Shown in pieces: positions 5,271-63,155 of a stretch of 64,000 nucleotides of DNA. Both the position numbers and the translations under genes were made by a program. Below the pieces are notes generated by a model that saw nothing but the letters and a program-made list of their open reading frames with translations, searched no databases and was not told the origin of the DNA. This DNA is from Paramesorhizobium endophyticum (lineage in GTDB: Bacteria > Pseudomonadota > Alphaproteobacteria > Rhizobiales > Rhizobiaceae): positions 1 to 64,000 of the forward strand of contig NZ_BMHH01000003.1 in NCBI RefSeq assembly GCF_014640615.1. Direction: 5' to 3'. How positions within the stretch are numbered: the stretch's first letter is position 1; the number at the start of each line of letters is the position of its first letter.

Positions 5271-6272
5271 TTACTTCACCGCCGCCTTGATCTTTTCGGC
5301 AGCTTCCGGCGTGACCCACTTGGTCCACACATCCTCATTATTCTTGAGGAAATATTTCGCGCCGTCTTCGCCGGTGGCCTGGTTATCGGTCATCCAGGCG
5401 AGCAGCTTGTTGACGGTGGCGTTGGACCAGGAGCGGGCCTTCAAATAATCGAGCGCAGGGCCGGCGCGGTCGGCGAAGCCCTTGGTGACGAGCGTCTCGA
5501 CATTATCTTTGGGCCATTCGTTCGGCTTCGGGTCGTTGCAGGATTCGACCGTGTTGCAACGCTTCCATTCCGCTTCGTCGAAGGAAGCGGCGTGGCCGAG
5601 CTTGACCATGTCATATTTGCCGAGCAGCGCGGTCGGCTCCCAATAGAAGCCCATCCAGCCTTGCTTGCGCTCGTAAGCCCTGGCGATGGAGCCATCCAGG
5701 CCAGCTGAGGAGCCGGTATCGACCAGCACGAAGCCCGCCTTTTCGCCGCCATAAGCCTTGAAGAACTGCGTGGTGACGCGCGTGCCACCCCAGCCGGACG
5801 GACCGTTGAACACCGCGCCCTTGCCGGGCTCTTCGGGGGCGGGGAAGAGTTCCGGATGCTTCAGCGCATCGGGAATCGTCTTGATGTCGGGATGGGCGTC
5901 GGCCAGATATTTCGGAATCCACCAGCCCGAGACGCCGCCTTCAGAGAGCGCCTTGGAGACGGAGACGATCTTGCCTTGCTTCGTGCCTTCGGCAACCACA
6001 TCCGGCAGGAAGTCCACCCATCCCTCGGGCGCGATGTCCGGCTGGCCCTTTTCGATCATGGACGTGATGGTCGGCACCGTGTCGCCGACGACGATTTCGG
6101 CGGAGCAGCCATAGCCCTCGCCCAGGATTATCTTGTCGAGATTGGCCAGCACTTCGGCCGACTGCCAGTTCATGCTGGCGATGGTGACATTGCCGCATTC
6201 TGCGGCGGAGGCCATATTGGCAAATCCCACGATACCGGCAGCCAGAATCGTGGAAGCAAGCAGCTTCTTCAT
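5271..6272 (-). CDS. choX: Choline-binding periplasmic protein
   Basis: A 333-residue OpuAC/ProX-type substrate-binding protein. A signal peptide (KKLLASTILAAGIVGFANM then SAAECGN, cut near residue 23) is clear. Several aromatic residues that could build the cation-binding box are visible (MNWQSAE, PEGWVDF, WGGTRV, GFYWEPT). The ATG at 6272 is chosen over 6299 because GGGAG lies just upstream and the signal peptide then starts properly. Choline rather than proline betaine is inferred from overall resemblance to rhizobial ChoX. Confidence 0.88.
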   Translation of the reverse strand: MKKLLASTILAAGIVGFANMASAAECGNVTIASMNWQSAEVLANLDKIILGEGYGCSAEIVVGDTVPTITSMIEKGQPDIAPEGWVDFLPDVVAEGTKQGKIVSVSKALSEGGVSGWWIPKYLADAHPDIKTIPDALKHPELFPAPEEPGKGAVFNGPSGWGGTRVTTQFFKAYGGEKAGFVLVDTGSSAGLDGSIARAYERKQGWMGFYWEPTALLGKYDMVKLGHAASFDEAEWKRCNTVESCNDPKPNEWPKDNVETLVTKGFADRAGPALDYLKARSWSNATVNKLLAWMTDNQATGEDGAKYFLKNNEDVWTKWVTPEAAEKIKAAVK

Positions 6273-6993: not shown

Positions 6994-7178
6994 GCGGGAC
7001 TGCGCCCCCCTCTGTCCTGCCGGACATCTCCCCCGCAAGGGGGGAGATTGGCTGGCATCGATGACGGTTTTCTATTCTGCAACATATGTGAGTAGCTTCA
7101 TGCGTCCACGAAGGCGCAATCTCCCCCCTTGCGGGGGAGATGGGCGGCAGCCCAGAGGGGGGGCGCTGTCCCGCCGAC
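6994..7178. repeat. Family A paired inverted repeat
   Basis: About 185 bp. The left arm reads CTGTCCTGCCGGACATCTCC then a C-rich and G-rich hairpin (CCCCCGCAAGGGGGGAGATT). The right arm is its near inverse. A variable centre of about 70 bp includes CATCGATGACGG. The arms are flanked by inverted GCGGGAC/GTCCCGC. Confidence 0.85.
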
Positions 7179-13672: not shown

Positions 13673-13707
13673 CGGCAACAGCCATAAAACATACTGTGCA
13701 GCCATTG

Positions 13708-13935
13708 CGTTCGGTTCCTGAGGGCGGAAGCCCTAGGGATCAAAAGGGAATGCGACGGACGGACCCATGCCGGGCGTCCATATCGCAGCCGACCCCGCGA
13801 CTGTAGAGCGGATAGGATCGATGCCATGCGCCGGGATAGCCCCCGGCCGGCCACTGGGAAACCGGGAAGGCGGCGCCGATCTTCTGACCCGCGAGCCAGG
13901 AGACCTGCCGGGCGCATGAGGGCAATGGTGCCCGC
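13708..13935 (+). promoter_or_regulatory. Cobalamin riboswitch
   Basis: A complete adenosylcobalamin riboswitch ahead of cbtB. Conserved blocks in order are GGTTCCTG, AAAAGGGAATGCG, GCAGCCGACCCCGCGACTGT, CCACTGGGAAACCGGGAAGG and the B12 box AGCCAGGAGACCTGCC at 13894-13909. It should lower expression of the cobalt uptake and cobalamin genes downstream when cobalamin is abundant. The region where the expression platform would be holds a family G palindrome (13969-14011) just before the cbtB ribosome binding site. Confidence 0.95.
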
Positions 13936-13968
13936 CACCCAAGGGGAGTTCATCCCCTTGATTCGGAC

Positions 13969-14218: not shown

Positions 14219-14320
14219 TGTGAAACTTAACGGGATCGAAGCCGCGCCGACTGGGCTTGCACTCATTCATAAATGAACAAATGCGGACGCCAGGCAGACC
14301 TCTCTGGGTTGCTGGAATTG

Positions 14321-14472
14321 CCCCTCACCCTTACCCTCTCCCCGCGCGCGGGGAGAGGGGGACACGGACGTTTTCGCCCCATTTTTTGCTAGGTGCAGGG
14401 GAAAAGGGAGAGGCGGCAGCGTTGACGCCTCCCTCTCCCCGTTCTTCACGGGGAGAGGGTAAGGGTGAGGGG
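14321..14472. repeat. Family B paired inverted repeat
   Basis: A 152-bp element between cbtB and cbtA. It opens CCCCTCACCCTTACCCTCTC, has a CGCGCGCGGG hairpin in the left arm, a centre with GTGCAGGGG, and closes with the exact inverse AGAGGGTAAGGGTGAGGGG. Its end is joined to a stretch related to family A (GGGCGCTGTCCCGCC). Confidence 0.88.
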
Positions 14473-14557
14473 CAATCCGGCCAGACAGGAGAGGGCGCTG
14501 TCCCGCCAATGTTCAATATGATTTGCAAGGCATCAGTCCCGCTTCAAAGGGGATCGC

Positions 14558-15283: not shown

Positions 15284-15461
15284 ACCCCCCTCTGTCCTGC
15301 CGGACATCTCCCCCACAAGGGGGGAGATTGGCCTTCATCGATGACGGCGCTTTATCTTGCAACGCCAACAATTGGCGAACCCGTATATCACAGCCGATCT
15401 CCCCCCTTGTGGGGGAGATGCCCGCCCTTCGACTAAAGCTCAGGAGGGTAGAGGGGAGTGT
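15284..15461. repeat. Family A paired inverted repeat, right arm damaged
   Basis: Located between cbtA and cobP. Left arm complete (CTGTCCTGCCGGACATCTCC). The right arm breaks off after GGGGGAGATGCCCG and continues with a different sequence before a short GAGGGG end. Confidence 0.8.
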
Positions 15462-17103: not shown

Positions 17104-17263
17104 ACCCCCCTCTGTCCTGCCGGACATCTCCCCCTCAAGGGGGGAGATTACGCCTTCATCAACGCTTGGCGCCAATCTCAAACATCACAGGATGAGGGCG
17201 GCGCTTCGTGTCAGCCAATCTCCCCCCTTGAGGGGGAGATGCCCGGCAGGGCAGAGGGGGGTG
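17104..17263. repeat. Family A paired inverted repeat
   Basis: A complete 160-bp element between cobW and cobN. Both arms are intact (CTGTCCTGCCGGACATCTCC and GATGCCCGGCAGGGCAGAGG), with a centre that includes CCTTCATCAACGCTTGGCG. Confidence 0.9.
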
Positions 17264-17300: not shown

Positions 17301-20300
17301 ATGCATCTTCTTCTAGCCCAGAAAGGAACCATCGCCGAAGGCGGCGAGGCGATCGATCTTGGTCAGTCGCCGGGCGATATGCTGTTCCTTTCAGCGGCGG
17401 ATACGGAATTGGCGAGCCTGGCTGCGGCCCATGCGTCCACGAGCGGCTTGACGCTGCGGCTTGCCAGCATCATGGCGCTGTCGCATCCGATGTCTGTCGA
17501 TACATACATTGAGCGTACCGCGCGGTACGCCCGCCTTATCGTCGTGCGGGTCATCGGCGGGGAGAGCTATTGGCCCTATGGGCTGGAGGCGCTGCACGCC
17601 TGTGCGGTGACGCATGGCATCAAGCTTGCCGTGCTGCCGGGCGACGACAAGCCGGATGCGGGGCTGCATCGGTTCTCCACCGTCGCGCCTGACGATCGCG
17701 ATGCGCTCTGGCATTATCTGATCGAGGGCGGGGCGCAGAACGCGCGGGGATTTCTGGATTATTGCGCGGCGCTGCTGGGGCGTGGCGAGAAGCCGGCGGA
17801 GGCTGCGCCGTTGCTCAAGGCCGGGATATGGTGGCCGGGGCGGGGTGTGGTTTCGGTGGAGGAGGTGAGAGGGCAGTGGGCTGCAACACCCCCCTCTGTC
17901 CTGCCGGACATCTCCCCCACAAGGGGGGAGATCGGCCTTCATCTGGGTTCACGTCAATCCCAAACGTTGAAGGACGAGAGCCAAGAGCCCTCCCAGCCAA
18001 TCTCCCCCCTTGTGGGGGAGATGCCCGGCAGGGCAGAGGGGGGTGATAATGGCGCTATCGTTGCAATTTGTTTTTACAGAGCCCTCGTCCAGAGCGGGCA
18101 GACCAAGGGCGTCGAGGCGCTGGTGGAGGCGCTGGCGGACAAGGGGCTAAACCCGCTGCCGGTGTTCGTGTCGAGCCTCAAGGACCCGGTATCAGTGGCG
18201 ACACTGGATTCGGTGTTTGCCGGGATGCCGCCCGATGTGGTCCTGAACGCCACCGGCTTTGCGGTTTCCGCGCCCGGTATGGACCGCGAGCCGACGGTGC
18301 TGGAAAAGCGCGGCGCTGTCGTGCTGCAGACGATTTTCTCCGGTTCGGCGGCAGAAGCGTGGGAAGCCTCGCCGCAGGGGCTCTCCGCCCGCGACCTCGC
18401 CATGAATGTGGCGCTGCCGGAGGTGGATGGCCGCGTGCTGTCGCGCGCCGTTTCGTTCAAGTCGGCGCGGCATTATGACGAGGCGGTCGAGGCCAATATC
18501 GTCACCCATGAGCCGCGCGGAGATCGGGTGGTATTTGTGGCTGAGCTTGCCGCTCGCTGGGCGCGGCTCAGGCGCAAGGCGGCGGGGGAACGGCGGGTCG
18601 CCATCGTCATGGCGAATTACCCCAACCGCGACGGGCGGCTCGGTAATGGCGTCGGGCTCGACACCCCGGCGGGGACAATGGAAGCGCTCAAGGCGATGCG
18701 GGCGGCGGGCTATCCCGTGGCCGATCTGCCCGATAGCGGCGATGCGCTGATCAACCATCTCATGGCCGGGCCGACCAATGCGGCGACGGATGGCCGCGAA
18801 ATCCGCGAAACGCTTTCCCTGAATCAATATAAGCACTTCCTAGGAAAGCTTCCTCTAAAGATTCAGGATGAAGTGACCGCGCGGTGGGGGCAGCCTGAGG
18901 CCGATCCGTTCTTCCTTGAGCGTATTGGCGGCTTCGCGCTGCCGCTGGCGCGGTTCGGCGAGACGCTGGTCGGCATCCAGCCGGCGCGCGGCTACAATAT
19001 CGATCACAAGGACAGCTATCACTCGCCCGATCTCGTCCCGCCGCATGGCTATCTTGCTTTCTACGCCTATTTGCGCGAGGCGTATGGCTCGGACGCCATC
19101 GTGCATATGGGCAAGCATGGCAATCTCGAATGGCTGCCGGGCAAGGCGCTGGCGCTGTCAGAGACCTGCTACCCGGAGGCGGTGCTGGGCGCGGTGCCGC
19201 ATGTCTATCCCTTCATCGTCAACGATCCCGGTGAGGGCACGCAGGCCAAGCGCCGCTCCGCCGCCGTGATCATCGACCATCTGACGCCGCCGCTGACCCG
19301 GGCGGAAAGCTACGGGCCTCTCAAGGACCTCGAAGCGCTGGTGGACGAATATTACGAGGCGTCCGGTGTCGATCCGCGGCGGCTGCGGCGGCTGAAAGGG
19401 CAGATATTGGATTTAGTCCGCGATATCGGTCTCGATCATGATGCGGGGATTCACGATCACGACGGCGAGGATTTGGCGCTGCAAAAGCTCGACGCCTATT
19501 TGTGTGACCTGAAGGAAATGCAGATCCGCGATGGGCTGCATGTGTTCGGGCAGTCTCCGGAAGGGCGGCTGCTGACGGATTTGCTCGTGGCGCTGGCGCG
19601 GGTGCCGCGCGGTACGCTGAACGATGCGGACATGAGTTTGCAGCGGGCGATTGCGCGGGATGCGGGGATTGCTGTGAGCGCTGGGGATAGCCCCTCACCC
19701 TTACCCTCTCCCCGTGACTTACGGGGAGAGGGGGACGTGAACGTTTTTGCCCCGCCTTTCAGCCAGGTGCAGGGGGAAGAGGGAGTGGCTGCAACGTCCA
19801 TGCCACCCTCTCCCCGCGCGCGGGGAGAGGGTAAGGGTGAGGGGCATTCCACGACCTTCGACCCCCTCGATTGCAACATGGCCGCCCCATGGACCGGGCC
19901 CAAGCCGCAAATCCTGCAAGCCGTCTCATCCGACCCATGGCGCATCACCGGCGATACGGTGGAGCGGATCGAACTTCTGGCTGCCAAGCTGGCGGCGGGC
20001 GAAGTGGCCTGTCCGGAAAACTGGACTGCCACGCGCGCGGTGCTTGATGGTATCGCCTCCCATTTGCGGCCCGTGGTGGAAGCCTGCGGAAAGGCGGAGA
20101 TGGACGCATTCCTCACCGCGCTCGATGGCCGTTTCGTCGCGCCCGGCCCGTCAGGCGCGCCGACGCGCGGGCGGCCGGATGTGCTGCCGACGGGGCGCAA
20201 TTTCTTTTCCATCGACAGCCGCGCCGTGCCGACACCGGCGGCGTGGGAGTTGGGCAAGAAATCGGCGGAACTGCTGATCACCCGTTACACGCAGGATCAT

Positions 20301-21407
20301 GGCGAATGGCCGACCTCGTTCGGGCTCACCGCCTGGGGAACGTCCAATATGCGCACTGGCGGCGACGATATCGCGCAGGCGCTGGCGCTGATCGGCGTCA
20401 AGCCGGTGTGGGACATGGCCTCGCGCCGGGTCACCGGCTATGAGATCGTGCCGCCGGCGATGCTGGGGCGTCCGCGCGTGGATGTGACGCTGCGCATATC
20501 CGGCTTCTTCCGCGATGCGTTCCCGGACCAGATCGCGCTGTTCGATCAAGCCGTGCGGGCGGTTGGTGCGCTCGGTGAAGACGAGGAGGATAACCCCATC
20601 GCCGCGCGGATGCGGCGCGAGGAGACGCGGCTCAGGGCGGAGGGCGAGGATGAGAAGGCGGCGCGGCGCAAGGCCGGTTATCGCGTGTTCGGCTCCAAGC
20701 CCGGCGCTTATGGCGCGGGCCTGCAAGCGCTGATGGACGAGAATGGCTGGCGGGAGCGGAGCGACCTTGCCGAGGCATGGCTCGTCTGGGGCGGCTATGC
20801 CTATGGCGCGGGCGAGGAGGGCAAGGCCGAGCGCGGGATGCTTGAGGAGCGGATGAAATCGGTCGAGGCGGTGGTCCAGAACCAGGACAATCGCGAGCAC
20901 GACCTTCTCGATTCCGACGATTACTACCAATTCGAGGGGGGCATGGCCGTCGCCGTCGAACATCTCACGGCCAAACGTCCGGTGATATACCACAACGACC
21001 ATTCGCGCCCGGAGCGGCCGGTGATCCGTACGCTGGAGGAGGAGGTAGGCCGGGTGGTGCGGGCGCGCGTCGTCAATCCGAAGTGGATCGCCGGGGTGAT
21101 GCGGCACGGCTACAAGGGCGCGTTCGAGATGGCTGCGACGGTGGATTACCTCTATGCCTTCGCCGCGACGACCGGGGCGGTCAAAAACCATCATTTCGAG
21201 GCCGTCTACCAGTCCTTGCTGGCCGACAACGACGTGCGCGAATTCCTTGAGGAGAAGAACCCGGCGGCGCTGGCCGAAATGGCGGAAAAGCTGTTGCAGG
21301 CGATCGACCGCGGATTGTGGGCGCCGCGTTCGAACTCCGCTCGTTTCGATTTAAGTGAAATAGCGAATTCTAATAAAATGAGTCAGGGAGCGATGCCAAA
21401 TGGCTGA
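17301..21407 (+). CDS. cobN: Aerobic cobaltochelatase large subunit CobN, with two embedded repeats
   Basis: A 1368-residue subunit that, with CobS and CobT ATPase partners, inserts cobalt into hydrogenobyrinate a,c-diamide. Recognisable family stretches include RGYNIDHKDSYHSPDLVPPH, HMGKHGNLEWLPGKALALS and FGLTAWGTSNMRTGGDDIAQ. It is about 90 residues longer than the well-known Pseudomonas denitrificans CobN (1275). The excess matches two in-frame repeat elements: family A at residues 196-248 and family B at 797-848. Both lie in linkers between conserved blocks. The ATG at 17301 has AAGGAG upstream and is preferred to an in-frame start at 17277. The gene ends overlapping cobO by 8 bases. Confidence 0.95.
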   Translation: MHLLLAQKGTIAEGGEAIDLGQSPGDMLFLSAADTELASLAAAHASTSGLTLRLASIMALSHPMSVDTYIERTARYARLIVVRVIGGESYWPYGLEALHACAVTHGIKLAVLPGDDKPDAGLHRFSTVAPDDRDALWHYLIEGGAQNARGFLDYCAALLGRGEKPAEAAPLLKAGIWWPGRGVVSVEEVRGQWAATPPSVLPDISPTRGEIGLHLGSRQSQTLKDESQEPSQPISPLVGEMPGRAEGGDNGAIVAICFYRALVQSGQTKGVEALVEALADKGLNPLPVFVSSLKDPVSVATLDSVFAGMPPDVVLNATGFAVSAPGMDREPTVLEKRGAVVLQTIFSGSAAEAWEASPQGLSARDLAMNVALPEVDGRVLSRAVSFKSARHYDEAVEANIVTHEPRGDRVVFVAELAARWARLRRKAAGERRVAIVMANYPNRDGRLGNGVGLDTPAGTMEALKAMRAAGYPVADLPDSGDALINHLMAGPTNAATDGREIRETLSLNQYKHFLGKLPLKIQDEVTARWGQPEADPFFLERIGGFALPLARFGETLVGIQPARGYNIDHKDSYHSPDLVPPHGYLAFYAYLREAYGSDAIVHMGKHGNLEWLPGKALALSETCYPEAVLGAVPHVYPFIVNDPGEGTQAKRRSAAVIIDHLTPPLTRAESYGPLKDLEALVDEYYEASGVDPRRLRRLKGQILDLVRDIGLDHDAGIHDHDGEDLALQKLDAYLCDLKEMQIRDGLHVFGQSPEGRLLTDLLVALARVPRGTLNDADMSLQRAIARDAGIAVSAGDSPSPLPSPRDLRGEGDVNVFAPPFSQVQGEEGVAATSMPPSPRARGEGKGEGHSTTFDPLDCNMAAPWTGPKPQILQAVSSDPWRITGDTVERIELLAAKLAAGEVACPENWTATRAVLDGIASHLRPVVEACGKAEMDAFLTALDGRFVAPGPSGAPTRGRPDVLPTGRNFFSIDSRAVPTPAAWELGKKSAELLITRYTQDHGEWPTSFGLTAWGTSNMRTGGDDIAQALALIGVKPVWDMASRRVTGYEIVPPAMLGRPRVDVTLRISGFFRDAFPDQIALFDQAVRAVGALGEDEEDNPIAARMRREETRLRAEGEDEKAARRKAGYRVFGSKPGAYGAGLQALMDENGWRERSDLAEAWLVWGGYAYGAGEEGKAERGMLEERMKSVEAVVQNQDNREHDLLDSDDYYQFEGGMAVAVEHLTAKRPVIYHNDHSRPERPVIRTLEEEVGRVVRARVVNPKWIAGVMRHGYKGAFEMAATVDYLYAFAATTGAVKNHHFEAVYQSLLADNDVREFLEEKNPAALAEMAEKLLQAIDRGLWAPRSNSARFDLSEIANSNKMSQGAMPNG
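17888..18045. repeat. Family A element inside cobN
   Basis: A complete 158-bp family A element within the cobN coding sequence. Both arms are intact and the frame stays open right through, adding Pro-rich and Gly-rich residues that include PPSVLPDISPTRGEIG and ISPLVGEMPGRAEGG. Confidence 0.92.
19691..19844. repeat. Family B element inside cobN
   Basis: A complete 154-bp family B element within cobN, read through as residues 797-848 (including SPLPSPRDLRGEGD and PPSPRARGEGKGEG). The same family lies between cbtB and cbtA and after cobM. Confidence 0.92.
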
Positions 21408-22825: not shown

Positions 22826-22857
22826 TAATGTTTGCAGGTTTGGCGCTGTAGCACCGC

Positions 22858-23015
22858 ACCCCCCTCTGTCCTGCCGGACATCTCCCCCACAAGGGGGGAG
22901 ATTGGCTGGGAGTTCCGCTTTCGCTAATCGCCGACGTTGGAGAATTGAGGGCCAACCTTGATGAAGGCCAATCTCCCCTCTTGTGGGGGAGATGCCCGGC
23001 AGGGCAGAGGGGGGT
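22858..23015. repeat. Family A paired inverted repeat
   Basis: A complete 158-bp element between cobE and cobM, ending 38 bases before the cobM start. The centre includes CGCCGACGTTGGAGAATTG. Confidence 0.9.
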
Positions 23016-23808: not shown

Positions 23809-23902
23809 CACCCTTTGTCATGCGCCATGGCGACCCCCTTCACCCTCGCCCTCCAACAAACCCAGGGCACCTCAGGAGAGGTTGCTGGAATGTCGCGGAT
23901 AG

Positions 23903-24056
23903 CCCCTCACCCTTACCCTCTCCCCGTGAATTACGGGGAGAGGGGGACATGGACGTTTTCGCTTGTTCCTTTCCGCCAGGTGCAGGGGATAAGGAAGGCG
24001 CGGCAGCGCGAATGTCCCCCTCGCCCCGCGTGCGGGGAGAGGGTAAGGGTGAGGGG
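23903..24056. repeat. Family B paired inverted repeat
   Basis: A 154-bp element between cobM and cobK (convergent genes). Both arms are intact, with the CCAGGTGCAGGGG motif in the centre. It could form the shared terminator of the two transcripts. Confidence 0.88.
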
Positions 24057-24110
24057 CTATCCACGGCAAACTGACTTGATGAGGGTGAAGGGGCGCTGAC
24101 GCTTAAGGAA

Positions 24111-24971: not shown

Positions 24972-25153
24972 TGGCGGGACAGCGCCCCCCTCTGTCCTGC
25001 CGGACATCTCCCCCGCAAGGGGGGAGATTGCGCCTTCATAGATGCTCGGTGCCAATTGTAAACGTTGCAGAATGGACGGTGATCGTCGTGCCAGCCAATC
25101 TCCCCCCTTGCGGGGGAGATGCCCGGCAGGGCAGAGGGGGGCGCTGTCCCGCC
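24972..25153. repeat. Family A paired inverted repeat with outer GCGGGACAGCGC arms
   Basis: A 182-bp element between cbiD and cobK. Besides the usual arms it has the outermost inverted pair GCGGGACAGCGC/GCGCTGTCCCGC, as does the copy at 6994-7178. Confidence 0.9.
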
Positions 25154-30662: not shown

Positions 30663-30834
30663 CGGCGGGACAGTAACCCCCCTCTGCCCTGCCGGGCATC
30701 TCCCCCACAAGGGGGGAGATTGGCCTTCATCGATGACGGCATACAATCGCCGACGTTCGTTGATTGGCGAAAGCAGGACTCACAGCCAATCTCCCCCCTT
30801 GTGGGGGAGATGTCCGGCAGGACAGAGGGGGGTG
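30663..30834. repeat. Family A paired inverted repeat
   Basis: A complete 172-bp element between the convergent cobD and ABC permease genes. The centre has CCTTCATCGATGACGGCATA. Confidence 0.9.
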
Positions 30835-32672: not shown

Positions 32673-32837
32673 AGAGGTAGAGGAATGGATCCCAGTGACA
32701 AGCACTGGGATGACGGTAGATTGGCTGTTGCAGGCAATGTTCGACAGTCCCGTCGGCAAGACGGTCTTTCTTCGTACAACGCTGTACCAACCCCGTCATC
32801 CCAGTGCTTGTCACTGGGATCCATTCCTCTACGGTGG
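32673..32837. repeat. Family E paired inverted repeat
   Basis: Two 43-bp arms, GAGGAATGGATCCCAGTGAC then AAGCACTGGGATGACGG and the inverse, around a 70-bp unrelated centre. Each arm also contains its own small hairpin (CCCAGTGACAAGCACTGGG). A second copy is at 62999-63155. Confidence 0.9.
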
Positions 32838-32873
32838 CCCAATCGCCACGCCACGAACTAAGCCTATTCCCCT

Positions 32874-35578: not shown

Positions 35579-35737
35579 ACCCCCCTCTGCCCTGCCGGGC
35601 ATCTCCCCCACAAGGGGGGAGATTACGCCTTCATGAACGCGCGTCACCAATCGCAAACGTCGCAAGGGGAGAGCAGCGGGCCATGTCAGCCAATCTCCCC
35701 CCTTGTGGGGGAGATGCCCGGCAGGGCAGAGGGGGGT
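35579..35737. repeat. Family A paired inverted repeat
   Basis: A complete 159-bp element between the dehydrogenase and lpxXL genes. The centre holds CCAATCGCAAACGTCGCAAG, a motif that recurs with changes in the other family A centres. Confidence 0.9.
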
Positions 35738-35770
35738 GTTCAACGCTTGACGCAAACCGAAAAGCCCCAC

Positions 35771-48514: not shown

Positions 48515-49831
48515 ATGTCTCACGAATTCATACTGAAAAATGCCCGCATCATCCTCGGCGACGAGGTATTGGCGGGCTCCGTCCTGATCCGTGACGGACG
48601 GATTGCCGACATTTCCGAAGGAAACATTGCCGCCGGCGAGGATATGGAGGGCGATTTCCTCACGCCGGGCCTCGTCGAGCTCCACACCGACCATCTGGAG
48701 GGGCATTACGCGCCGCGCCCGAAGGTGCGCTGGAACCCCGTCGCCGCGGTGCAGGCGCATGACGCGCAGATATCAGCTTCCGGTATCACCACGGTGTTCG
48801 ACGCGCTGCGTGTCGGCCTCGATGCGGAGGCGGAGGTGGGCGTCGAGGACATGCGCGTGCTGGCAGGGGCGATTCTGGACAGCATCGAGGCAAAGCGGCT
48901 GCGCGCCGACCATTTCCTGCATCTGCGCTGCGAGGTTTCGGCACCCGACTGCCTCGATGCCTTCTCGCTGCTTAAGGATAATGAGCGGGTGCGCATGGCG
49001 TCGCTGATGGACCATGCGCCCGGGCAGCGGCAGTTCGCCGACCCGGAGGCCTACCGCGTCTATTACATGCGCAAGATGAAAGCCTCGGAGGAGGAGTTCC
49101 GGCAATATTGCGAAAGGCGCATGGCCGATTCGATGCGCAACTCGGCGGCGAACCGCAAGGCGATCTCCGAAGCCTGCCATCAACGCGGCATCGTGCTTGC
49201 CAGCCATGACGACGCGACCGTAGCCCATGTGGAGGAGGCGGCGGAGCAGGGCATTCGCGTGGCGGAGTTCCCGACCACGGTAAGCGCCGCCAGCGCCTCG
49301 AAGGGGGCGGGGCTGGCGGTGCTGATGGGCGCGCCCAATGTGGTGCGCGGCGGCTCGCATTCCGGCAATGTTTCCGCCCGCGAACTGGCGGAGAGGGGCT
49401 ACCTCGACATTCTTTCGTCCGACTACATTCCGTTCAGCCTGATGCAGGCGGCATTTTTCCTTGGTGATGTGGTGGACGGCATCACGCTGCCACAGGCCAT
49501 GCGGCTTGTCTCGAAGAACCCGGCGGAGGCCGTGGGGCTGGATGATCGCGGCGAGATCGCGGTGGGCAAGCGCGCCGATCTGGTGCGGGTGAGGGCCCCC
49601 GCCAGCGACCGCAGGGAGCTTAAGGGCGGGGCAGCAGGGGCCCCCGCCAGCGACCGCAGGGAGCTTAAGGGCGGGGCAGCAGGGGCCCTCGCCAGCGACC
49701 GCAGGGAGCTTAAGGGCGGGGCAGGGGGACCCGCCAGCGACCGCAGGGAGCTTAAGGGCGGGGCAGATAAGGCCATGGACCATGTGCCGGTCGTCCGCAC
49801 GGTGTGGCGCGAAGGGGAGCGGGTGATATGA
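48515..49831 (+). CDS. phnM: Alpha-D-ribose 1-methylphosphonate 5-triphosphate diphosphatase with tandem repeat insert
   Basis: A 438-residue amidohydrolase-fold enzyme that removes diphosphate from the C-P lyase intermediate. Metal-binding motif GLVELHTDHLEGHY (about 53-66), SHDDATVAHV with paired His and Asp, and SSDYIPFSLMQAAF with the late Asp are seen. Residues 361-418 consist of four copies of a 13 to 15-residue unit (core ASDRRELKGGA) inserted between LVRVRAP and VPVVRTVWREG, which are adjacent in ordinary PhnM. The ATG at 48515 is preferred; a GTG at 48506 is possible. The stop overlaps phnN. Confidence 0.93.
   Translation: MSHEFILKNARIILGDEVLAGSVLIRDGRIADISEGNIAAGEDMEGDFLTPGLVELHTDHLEGHYAPRPKVRWNPVAAVQAHDAQISASGITTVFDALRVGLDAEAEVGVEDMRVLAGAILDSIEAKRLRADHFLHLRCEVSAPDCLDAFSLLKDNERVRMASLMDHAPGQRQFADPEAYRVYYMRKMKASEEEFRQYCERRMADSMRNSAANRKAISEACHQRGIVLASHDDATVAHVEEAAEQGIRVAEFPTTVSAASASKGAGLAVLMGAPNVVRGGSHSGNVSARELAERGYLDILSSDYIPFSLMQAAFFLGDVVDGITLPQAMRLVSKNPAEAVGLDDRGEIAVGKRADLVRVRAPASDRRELKGGAAGAPASDRRELKGGAAGALASDRRELKGGAGGPASDRRELKGGADKAMDHVPVVRTVWREGERVI
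49595..49768 (+). repeat. Tandem 45-bp repeat inside phnM (four units)
   Basis: Units begin at 49595, 49640, 49685 and 49730. The core GCCAGCGACCGCAGGGAGCT then TAAGGGCGGGGCA is identical in all four. The last unit is shortened to 39 bases. All units keep the phnM frame. Confidence 0.95.
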
Positions 49832-62836: not shown

Positions 62837-62998
62837 TCCTTCCTGCAGCGCTCGCTTTCAGTGCGAAGCGCTGCTTTCCCCTTGAGGAAGCGAATAGGGA
62901 ATAGCGAGCGGCAGATGGGATAAAACTATCTGTTAGAGCATATCACCTTTAAATGGAAACAGGTGGTTTATTCTCTTATCGTTGCGGTCACGCCGCCG

Positions 62999-63155
62999 TC
63001 GAGGAATGGATCCCAGTGACAAGCACTGGGATGACGGGTGGAGATGTTTCGTCTACCATAGGACATGCTCTGCCAAGCGGAGAGGTTGGAGATTTGGGCC
63101 AACAGCCAAGCAACCCGTCATCCCAGTGCTTGTCACTGGGATCCATTCCTCTCCC
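62999..63155. repeat. Family E paired inverted repeat
   Basis: Arms GAGGAATGGATCCCAGTGAC and the inverse CACTGGGATCCATTCCTC around a 70-bp centre unlike that of the copy at 32673-32837. It fills the gap between hupB and the convergent toxin-antitoxin genes. Confidence 0.9.

Follow-up and report, generated by a model that had tools for sequence, protein, structure and literature searches.

How can the gene of an enzyme carry two unrelated palindromic repeats inside its coding sequence and be read through from end to end? The question is raised by cobN (17301..21407, + strand), the gene for the large subunit of the aerobic cobaltochelatase, in a stretch of 64,000 nucleotides from Paramesorhizobium endophyticum (NCBI RefSeq assembly GCF_014640615.1, contig NZ_BMHH01000003.1, positions 1 to 64,000 of the forward strand), which is referred to below as the window. 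Both of its in-frame inserts are copies of non-autonomous palindromic repeats of the genus, similar to miniature inverted-repeat transposable elements (MITEs), and the same two places of CobN are filled by repeats in many other Rhizobiales. The explanation that we regard as probable is that these are selfish elements tolerated in two variable regions of the protein, where the encoded peptide drifts while a process acting at the level of the element keeps its arms.

In-frame palindromic elements within cobN

The open reading frame (ORF) of cobN extends from 17277 or 17301 through 21407, and its product matches the Pfam family PF02514 (CobN-Mg_chel) over profile positions 1-1088 of 1090; the first residues of a solved CobN, 9uk9 (1263 residues), agree with a start at 17301. 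Repeat search and alignment place a family A element of 158 nt at 17888..18045 (+), residues 196-248 counted from the 17301 start, a position hereafter called S1. It is composed of a left arm (17889..17932, +), which contains a small hairpin and a TCTCCCC/GGGGAGA hairpin and is translated as PPSVLPDISPTRGE, a variable spacer (17933..17999, +) and a right arm (18000..18043, +) translated as ISPLVGEMPGRAEGG. A family B element of about 154 nt occupies 19691..19844 (+), residues 797-848 in the same numbering (site S2), and is translated as PSPLPSPRDLRGEG...PPSPRARGEGKGEG. Both are inverted repeats, A matching its own reverse strand at 77% over 164 nt and B at 72.5% over 160 nt, and the two families are unrelated, with common stretches of just 8-12 nt (E 0.24 or worse). 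Neither insert contains a stop codon of the cobN frame, and both are translated as Pro/Ser/Gly-rich linkers. In the alignment with 9uk9, numbered from the 17277 start, query residues 203-260 lie opposite chain residues 196-200 and residues 799-860 opposite 744-746, so that the extra length of CobN is accounted for by the two segments; the alignment with 7c6o, a more distant solved CobN, is likewise broken around both places. A first-pass annotation of the window had located the complete A and B elements at these positions, described them as unrelated and read through without a stop, and attributed to them the extra length of the protein, all of which is borne out.

Occupancy and turnover of the two sites in Rhizobiales

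The distribution of these inserts was followed in an alignment of 88 CobN proteins of Rhizobiales, made up of 8 of the 30 loci of one genome set (near-complete genes without a duplicate among the others) and the best 80 of 271, in which core columns are those filled in at least 75% of the rows and an insert has 15 residues or more. Only two internal places carry inserts of this size, S1 in 54/88 and S2 in 61/88 rows, the borders of S1 being blurred by the alignment in a few rows (L011-L013, L096). Both sites are empty in fifteen of the 88 rows, which belong to the Brucella/Ochrobactrum group and to one clade of Phyllobacterium. Among 24 genomes of other families, 13 show CobN matches in open frames of 1223-1290 residues, a length that fits empty sites, and in the remaining 11 the matches are divergent, split or missing. 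At least five families of inserts can be told apart, A and B plus C, D and E, three labels that rest on sequence patterns, some of the inserts being mosaic. For 113 of the 115 inserts, all save those of L013 and L112 at S1, the 88 loci hold a match beyond cobN itself (E 1e-4 or better), which for 27 of them lies in their own locus, and 106/115 fold more stably than 30 codon-shuffled versions, with z below -3. Each of the 88 rows is a single open frame of at least 1242 residues, and all 115 inserts are free of stops.

Five more genomes of the genus were compared with the source genome: Phyllobacterium leguminum (G001), the sister genome G002, Paramesorhizobium deserti (G003), P. phragmitis (G004) and P. 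salinisoli (G005). At S2, family A is found in P. leguminum and P. phragmitis and family B in the source genome and G002. Scars are also present, such as the six-residue remnant GRTEGD that is the only S1 content of P. salinisoli, and PSPTPPLWGGVGE in L109. Since the extra segments of relatives lie at the same places and are often other repeats, S1 and S2 appear as recurrently or persistently occupied sites rather than as a peculiarity of one genome.

Turnover is considerable. On a quick tree built without the insert columns, with 27 of its 85 inner branches open, at least 12 changes between occupied and empty are required at each site, and at least 12 changes of family type at S1 and 19 at S2 (labelled inserts, with 7 and 3 unlabelled ones omitted), counts that cannot separate gain, loss or exchange of cobN alleles. 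Differences are seen even between sister rows with a core identity of 0.96: L064 and L100 have A versus E at S1 and A versus D at S2, and L047 and L072 have different families at S2. At the same core identity, the source genome and G002 have B in common at S2, with a peptide identity of 0.83, and at S1 both carry the arms of A around spacers that differ (26/60 nt plus gaps).

Divergence of arms, spacers and peptide

The core of CobN is under strong constraint, with a ratio of nonsynonymous to synonymous substitution (Ka/Ks) of 0.046-0.115 in 119 row pairs of at least 0.90 core identity. The equivalent uncorrected ratio of the inserts (pN/pS; 104 comparisons, insert identity at least 0.45) has a median of 0.77, with quartiles of 0.61-0.87 and a range of 0.12-1.20, so the insert peptide is far freer than the core, yet not wholly free, and can be called weakly constrained.

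The arms behave differently. In six Rhizobium rows chosen for a common spacer at S1, divergence is 0.022 in the arms versus 0.209 in the spacer and 0.280 at fourfold core sites; in nine rows of the R. tropici group at S2 the values are 0.066, 0.331 and 0.395, respectively. The arms are less diverged than the fourfold sites in every pair of rows, 15/15 in the S1 set and 36/36 in the S2 set. Outside cobN, four of the nine window elements, all of family A, are alignable through to G002; their arms differ at 1-5/46 nt and the spacers of three of them by 28-36%. The same contrast in three of these four copies indicates that it is not peculiar to cobN. Within the gene, the S1 left arm differs from that of G002 at 2/46 positions, yet it is read in another frame, as PPSVLPDISPTRGE in the source genome and PPLSCRTSPPQGGR in G002. 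Moreover, S1 and S2 arms from one genome resemble each other more (0.965, nine genomes) than do arms taken from different genomes (0.927; permutation p 0.001, relatedness being corrected for no further than the permutation does), which fits homogenisation or a common local source.

Copies elsewhere and other host genes

The first-pass annotation had noticed the same elements between nearby genes, and several copies of A and B do sit between the B12 genes of the window. Family A is found (positions without assigned strand) at 17104..17263, where it separates cobW from cobN and stops 37 nt short of the start codon at 17301, after cbtA (15285..15424), in the interval from cobO to a TP_methylase gene (22857..23015), between the CbiJ/CobK and CbiD genes (24985..25144) and between a lipid A acyltransferase and an alcohol dehydrogenase gene (35579..35738); the repeat search adds a diverged copy at 7005..7162 and one at 30676..30834. 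Family B lies upstream of cbtA (14317..14474) and between a TP_methylase gene and the CbiJ/CobK gene (23899..24057). In the whole genome, A occupies at least 40 places (40 of 222 candidates scored), with mixed lengths modulo 3 (15, 15 and 10 of 40), and B at least 28 near-full-length places (40 of 47 candidates scored). An A-like element is also present in Rhizobium etli plasmid p42e, between hutH and hutG (L136, around 6001-6144).

Other features of the window deserve mention. A cobalamin riboswitch (RF00174, 88.8 bits) lies at 13695-13926 (+), upstream of the B copy and cbtA. Five copies of a third palindromic family, about 50 nt long and built around GAAAAGTCTGCAACTTTTC, lie at 13965, 27984, 39568, 54620 and 59886; a further inverted-repeat element around GGATCCCAGTGACAAGCACTGGGAT occurs at 32677-32716, 62998-63037 and 32792-32850, and a tandem array at 49593-49777 contains a 53-nt unit four times, spaced 42-45 nt apart.

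Insertion in genes is not restricted to cobN. Six frames were surveyed around the 40 A and 28 B copies of the source genome, where 20 of the 26 ORFs spanning an element were scanned with Pfam, the other 6 being alternative frames at scanned places, and around 48 B copies of G001, G002 and G004, where 18 of 19 were scanned and the omitted one is cobN of G002. ORFs without Pfam support were not counted as hosts, nor were L123, L183 and L222, where the element comes ahead of the first domain; L229, where it is in another phase and immediately ahead of an ATP-grasp_3 match (from profile position 59 on), is ambiguous and was left out. In the source genome, Pfam-backed genes contain 3/40 A copies and 7/28 B copies. 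The A hosts are CobN, a penicillin-binding protein, with the element between a Transpeptidase match (profile 2-183 of 299) and BiPBP_C, and a FAD_binding_2/Succ_DH_flav_C protein that is presumably NadB-like. The B hosts are CobN, two adjacent and probably CydDC-like ABC exporters, with the element ahead of the ATPase domain, a CT_C_D/CT_A_B fusion, a PfkB-DUF2090 fusion, of which the genome has a second gene without the segment, a CAF17-like protein and a class II aldolase. The other three genomes add an aminotransferase and a molybdopterin oxidoreductase (two genomes each), a Dus protein and a PP-loop protein, which gives, for the genus and apart from CobN, twelve kinds of Pfam-backed host gene. 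Insertion is mostly between domain matches or at their edge; the inserts of the aldolase, the aminotransferase, Dus and perhaps the penicillin-binding protein fall within the span of a domain model. The aminotransferase gene (Aminotran_1_2) with B in frame belongs to P. leguminum G001 and to G002 (L206:2016-3173, L230:2039-3268); in both it shares a contig with cobN, at a distance of about 8 kb, and it is perhaps cobC. Plasmid annotation was discarded as a source of host genes, its gene tables being incomplete: among the best 40 of 72 rows, 35 had no listed gene and 3 were unannotated. The plasmid matches that name a gene, H26 and H27, point to an ABC transporter ATP-binding protein, and the H26 gene starts inside the match.

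Possible origins of the inserts

If the inserts are tolerated selfish elements, S1 and S2 would correspond to surface loops of the protein, and insertion there would be survivable because the arms leave the frames open. Few or several founding insertions may have occurred at each site, after which the interior would have been exchanged, worn down to scars or covered by elements of further families. The likeness of the arms would be due to gene conversion between them and the numerous copies in the genome, or to a constraint on the hairpin itself, and not to selection on the peptide. The universal keeping of the frame suggests that the mature enzyme most likely retains both segments, which would have little effect.

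Several observations weigh against this explanation. Insert pN/pS values below 1 leave some constraint on the peptide. The element at 15285 shows no contrast between its spacer (4/48) and its right arm (5/46), and, of the nine window elements lying outside the gene, five resisted alignment to G002. Moreover, the right arm of the A-type inserts of CobN is read in one phase in 59/59 cases over both sites, when that phase makes up just 32/85 of the open frames of 39 other genomic copies, and B is read in one phase in 7/7 Pfam-backed hosts of the source genome. Such constancy points to a small number of founding insertions at each site, or else to selection in favour of a single peptide frame; it weakens both the idea of many independent insertions and that of an irrelevant peptide, and a model of wholly independent insertion has been toned down on account of the right arm. 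A junction locked after few founding insertions, or the rejection of frames bearing Cys or Trp, would each explain the phase. As for the remaining arms and hosts, the A left arms of CobN occur in two phases (49 and 13 of 62), and the phases of A differ among CobN, the penicillin-binding protein and the NadB-like gene. The B phase recurs in ten counted ORFs of G001, G002 and G004, several of them orthologous to hosts of the source genome, and accounts for 53/101 open frames of the 48 copies of other genomes, hosts included; in the ambiguous L229 and in L222, where the element is upstream, B is in another phase.

The conservation of the arms could also be read as a sign that the hairpins act as RNA or DNA inside the gene, for instance as a strong stem-loop at a domain boundary that holds back the ribosome while a 1370-residue protein folds co-translationally, or that affects transcript stability, in which case selection would hold the arms while the peptide drifts. 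This would fit arms whose conservation exceeds that of fourfold core sites several-fold, the position of the element between Pfam domains in several other hosts, and a small arm hairpin whose pairing is kept through two-sided changes at 2/5 pairs among 12 variants. However, the pairing observed in that hairpin (0.933) is within the range of the shuffles, whose maximum is 0.95, the same contrast in three of the four alignable copies outside cobN makes a role specific to this gene needless, 15 of the 88 rows are empty at both places, and the greater likeness of arms within a genome in the nine genomes compared fits homogenisation. A role of this kind is in our opinion unlikely, and the same is to be said of its wider version, in which the hairpins of cobN and of other genes are kept for a transcript function such as ribosome pausing at domain boundaries; if true, it would mean a coding region conserved for base pairing while its protein drifts and even shifts reading frame. 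Selection might instead act on the peptide, the inserts being adaptive linkers or regulatory loops that bind CobS/CobT or the substrate. The strong preference for one phase, the filling of both places in many lineages and pN/pS values mostly below 1 speak for it. The median of those values is nevertheless far above that of the core, sister rows have different families at one place or read one arm in different frames, and whole clades lack inserts, which leaves this idea quite improbable.

A further alternative is that the segments never form part of the enzyme, removed by a self-splicing RNA, by protein splicing or by translational bypass. The strong folding of the inserts is the sole point found for it, whereas an Rfam search of the window at gathering thresholds matched the cobalamin riboswitch alone, so that no catalogued intron or ribozyme was seen there. 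Removal would also make needless the frame keeping of all 88 rows and 115 inserts, and the mixed lengths modulo 3 of the genomic A copies speak against it as well; we consider it very improbable. An error of assembly or frame might be feared in a draft genome of 83 contigs, but it was rejected and is hardly conceivable, since the B insert recurs in G002, where S1 likewise holds an A-type element, and inserts of this kind are seen in dozens of further assemblies.

Comparison with known repetitive elements

Families A and B have the inverted-repeat ends and the multiple copies of MITEs and, with about 155 nt, they are too short for a transposase and therefore non-autonomous. In the comparison for target-site duplications the flanks differ, and there is no empty site close enough to compare. 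A Y1/RAYT (REP-associated tyrosine) transposase as the driver was considered and rejected: PF01797 (Y1_Tnp) genes are present in only 2/6 genomes of the genus, with none in G001 and G002 despite their many B copies, and the hairpin motif of A and B was not found in the loci of the two Y1_Tnp genes of these six genomes. As judged by titles and abstract openings, with most subscription journals outside the coverage, the literature searched contained no paper on palindromic inserts in rhizobial CobN.

Rhizobium-specific intergenic mosaic elements (RIMEs), reportedly due to Osteras et al. in 1995, have a palindromic structure. They are named in PMC2573895 and, like A, they are rhizobial, repeated and intergenic, mosaic by their very name; insertion in genes does not appear in the part of that account devoted to them. 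That family A might be a RIME is a lead drawn from a comparison by description. In the relevant parts of PMC2229807, the ERIC/RU-1 and Correia MITEs are short non-autonomous elements whose ORFs have become joined in frame to genes; they belong to other hosts, recurrent occupancy of two sites is not described there, and they were likewise compared with A and B by description. Intragenic repetitive extragenic palindromic (REP) sequences of the GTAG/CGTC type are also found inside ORFs, with double insertions in uvrA and uvrB, and different REPs lie at about the same site of recB in X. campestris and X. oryzae, as PMC3733652 reports in the section concerned. REPs measure 20-40 bp and are tied to RAYT transposases, whereas A and B have about 150-160 bp. 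The first-pass annotation had called two unrelated families in one essential-pathway gene unusual; two insertions in one gene have precedents in uvrA and uvrB, and several families at the same two points across many genera are what remains unusual.

The same annotation had likened the elements to the Rickettsia palindromic elements (RPEs), reportedly described by Ogata et al. in 2000 and 2002. The likeness is one of organisation: A (158 nt) and B (about 154 nt) are mutually unrelated families of inverted repeats, found both in intergenic regions and in frame in conserved genes. In the passages of PMC10969869 and PMC2229807 that deal with them, RPEs are palindromes of about 105-150 bp that form several families and occur between genes as well as, in frame, within conserved ones; translation and activity are reported for a guanylate kinase that carries an RPE (PMC2229807). 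The pertinent part of a 2024 review (PMC10969869) counts in-frame MITE fusions in several bacteria, considers RPEs unusually frequent and deems a similar role in other prokaryotes conceivable. Unlike those of RPEs, the hosts of A and B are free-living Rhizobiales, and the same two places of CobN are filled across many genera by several families, with slow arms and a fast interior. The extra segments of rhizobial CobN should accordingly be annotated with caution, as most of them are repeats and not domains. One enzyme with two places in empty, filled, swapped and eroded states in dozens of species offers a natural experiment, which makes it testable how mobile repeats turn into protein segments and whether gene conversion or RNA structure holds their arms. 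In this way, protein-coding palindromes, best known from Rickettsia, are extended to free-living Rhizobiales.

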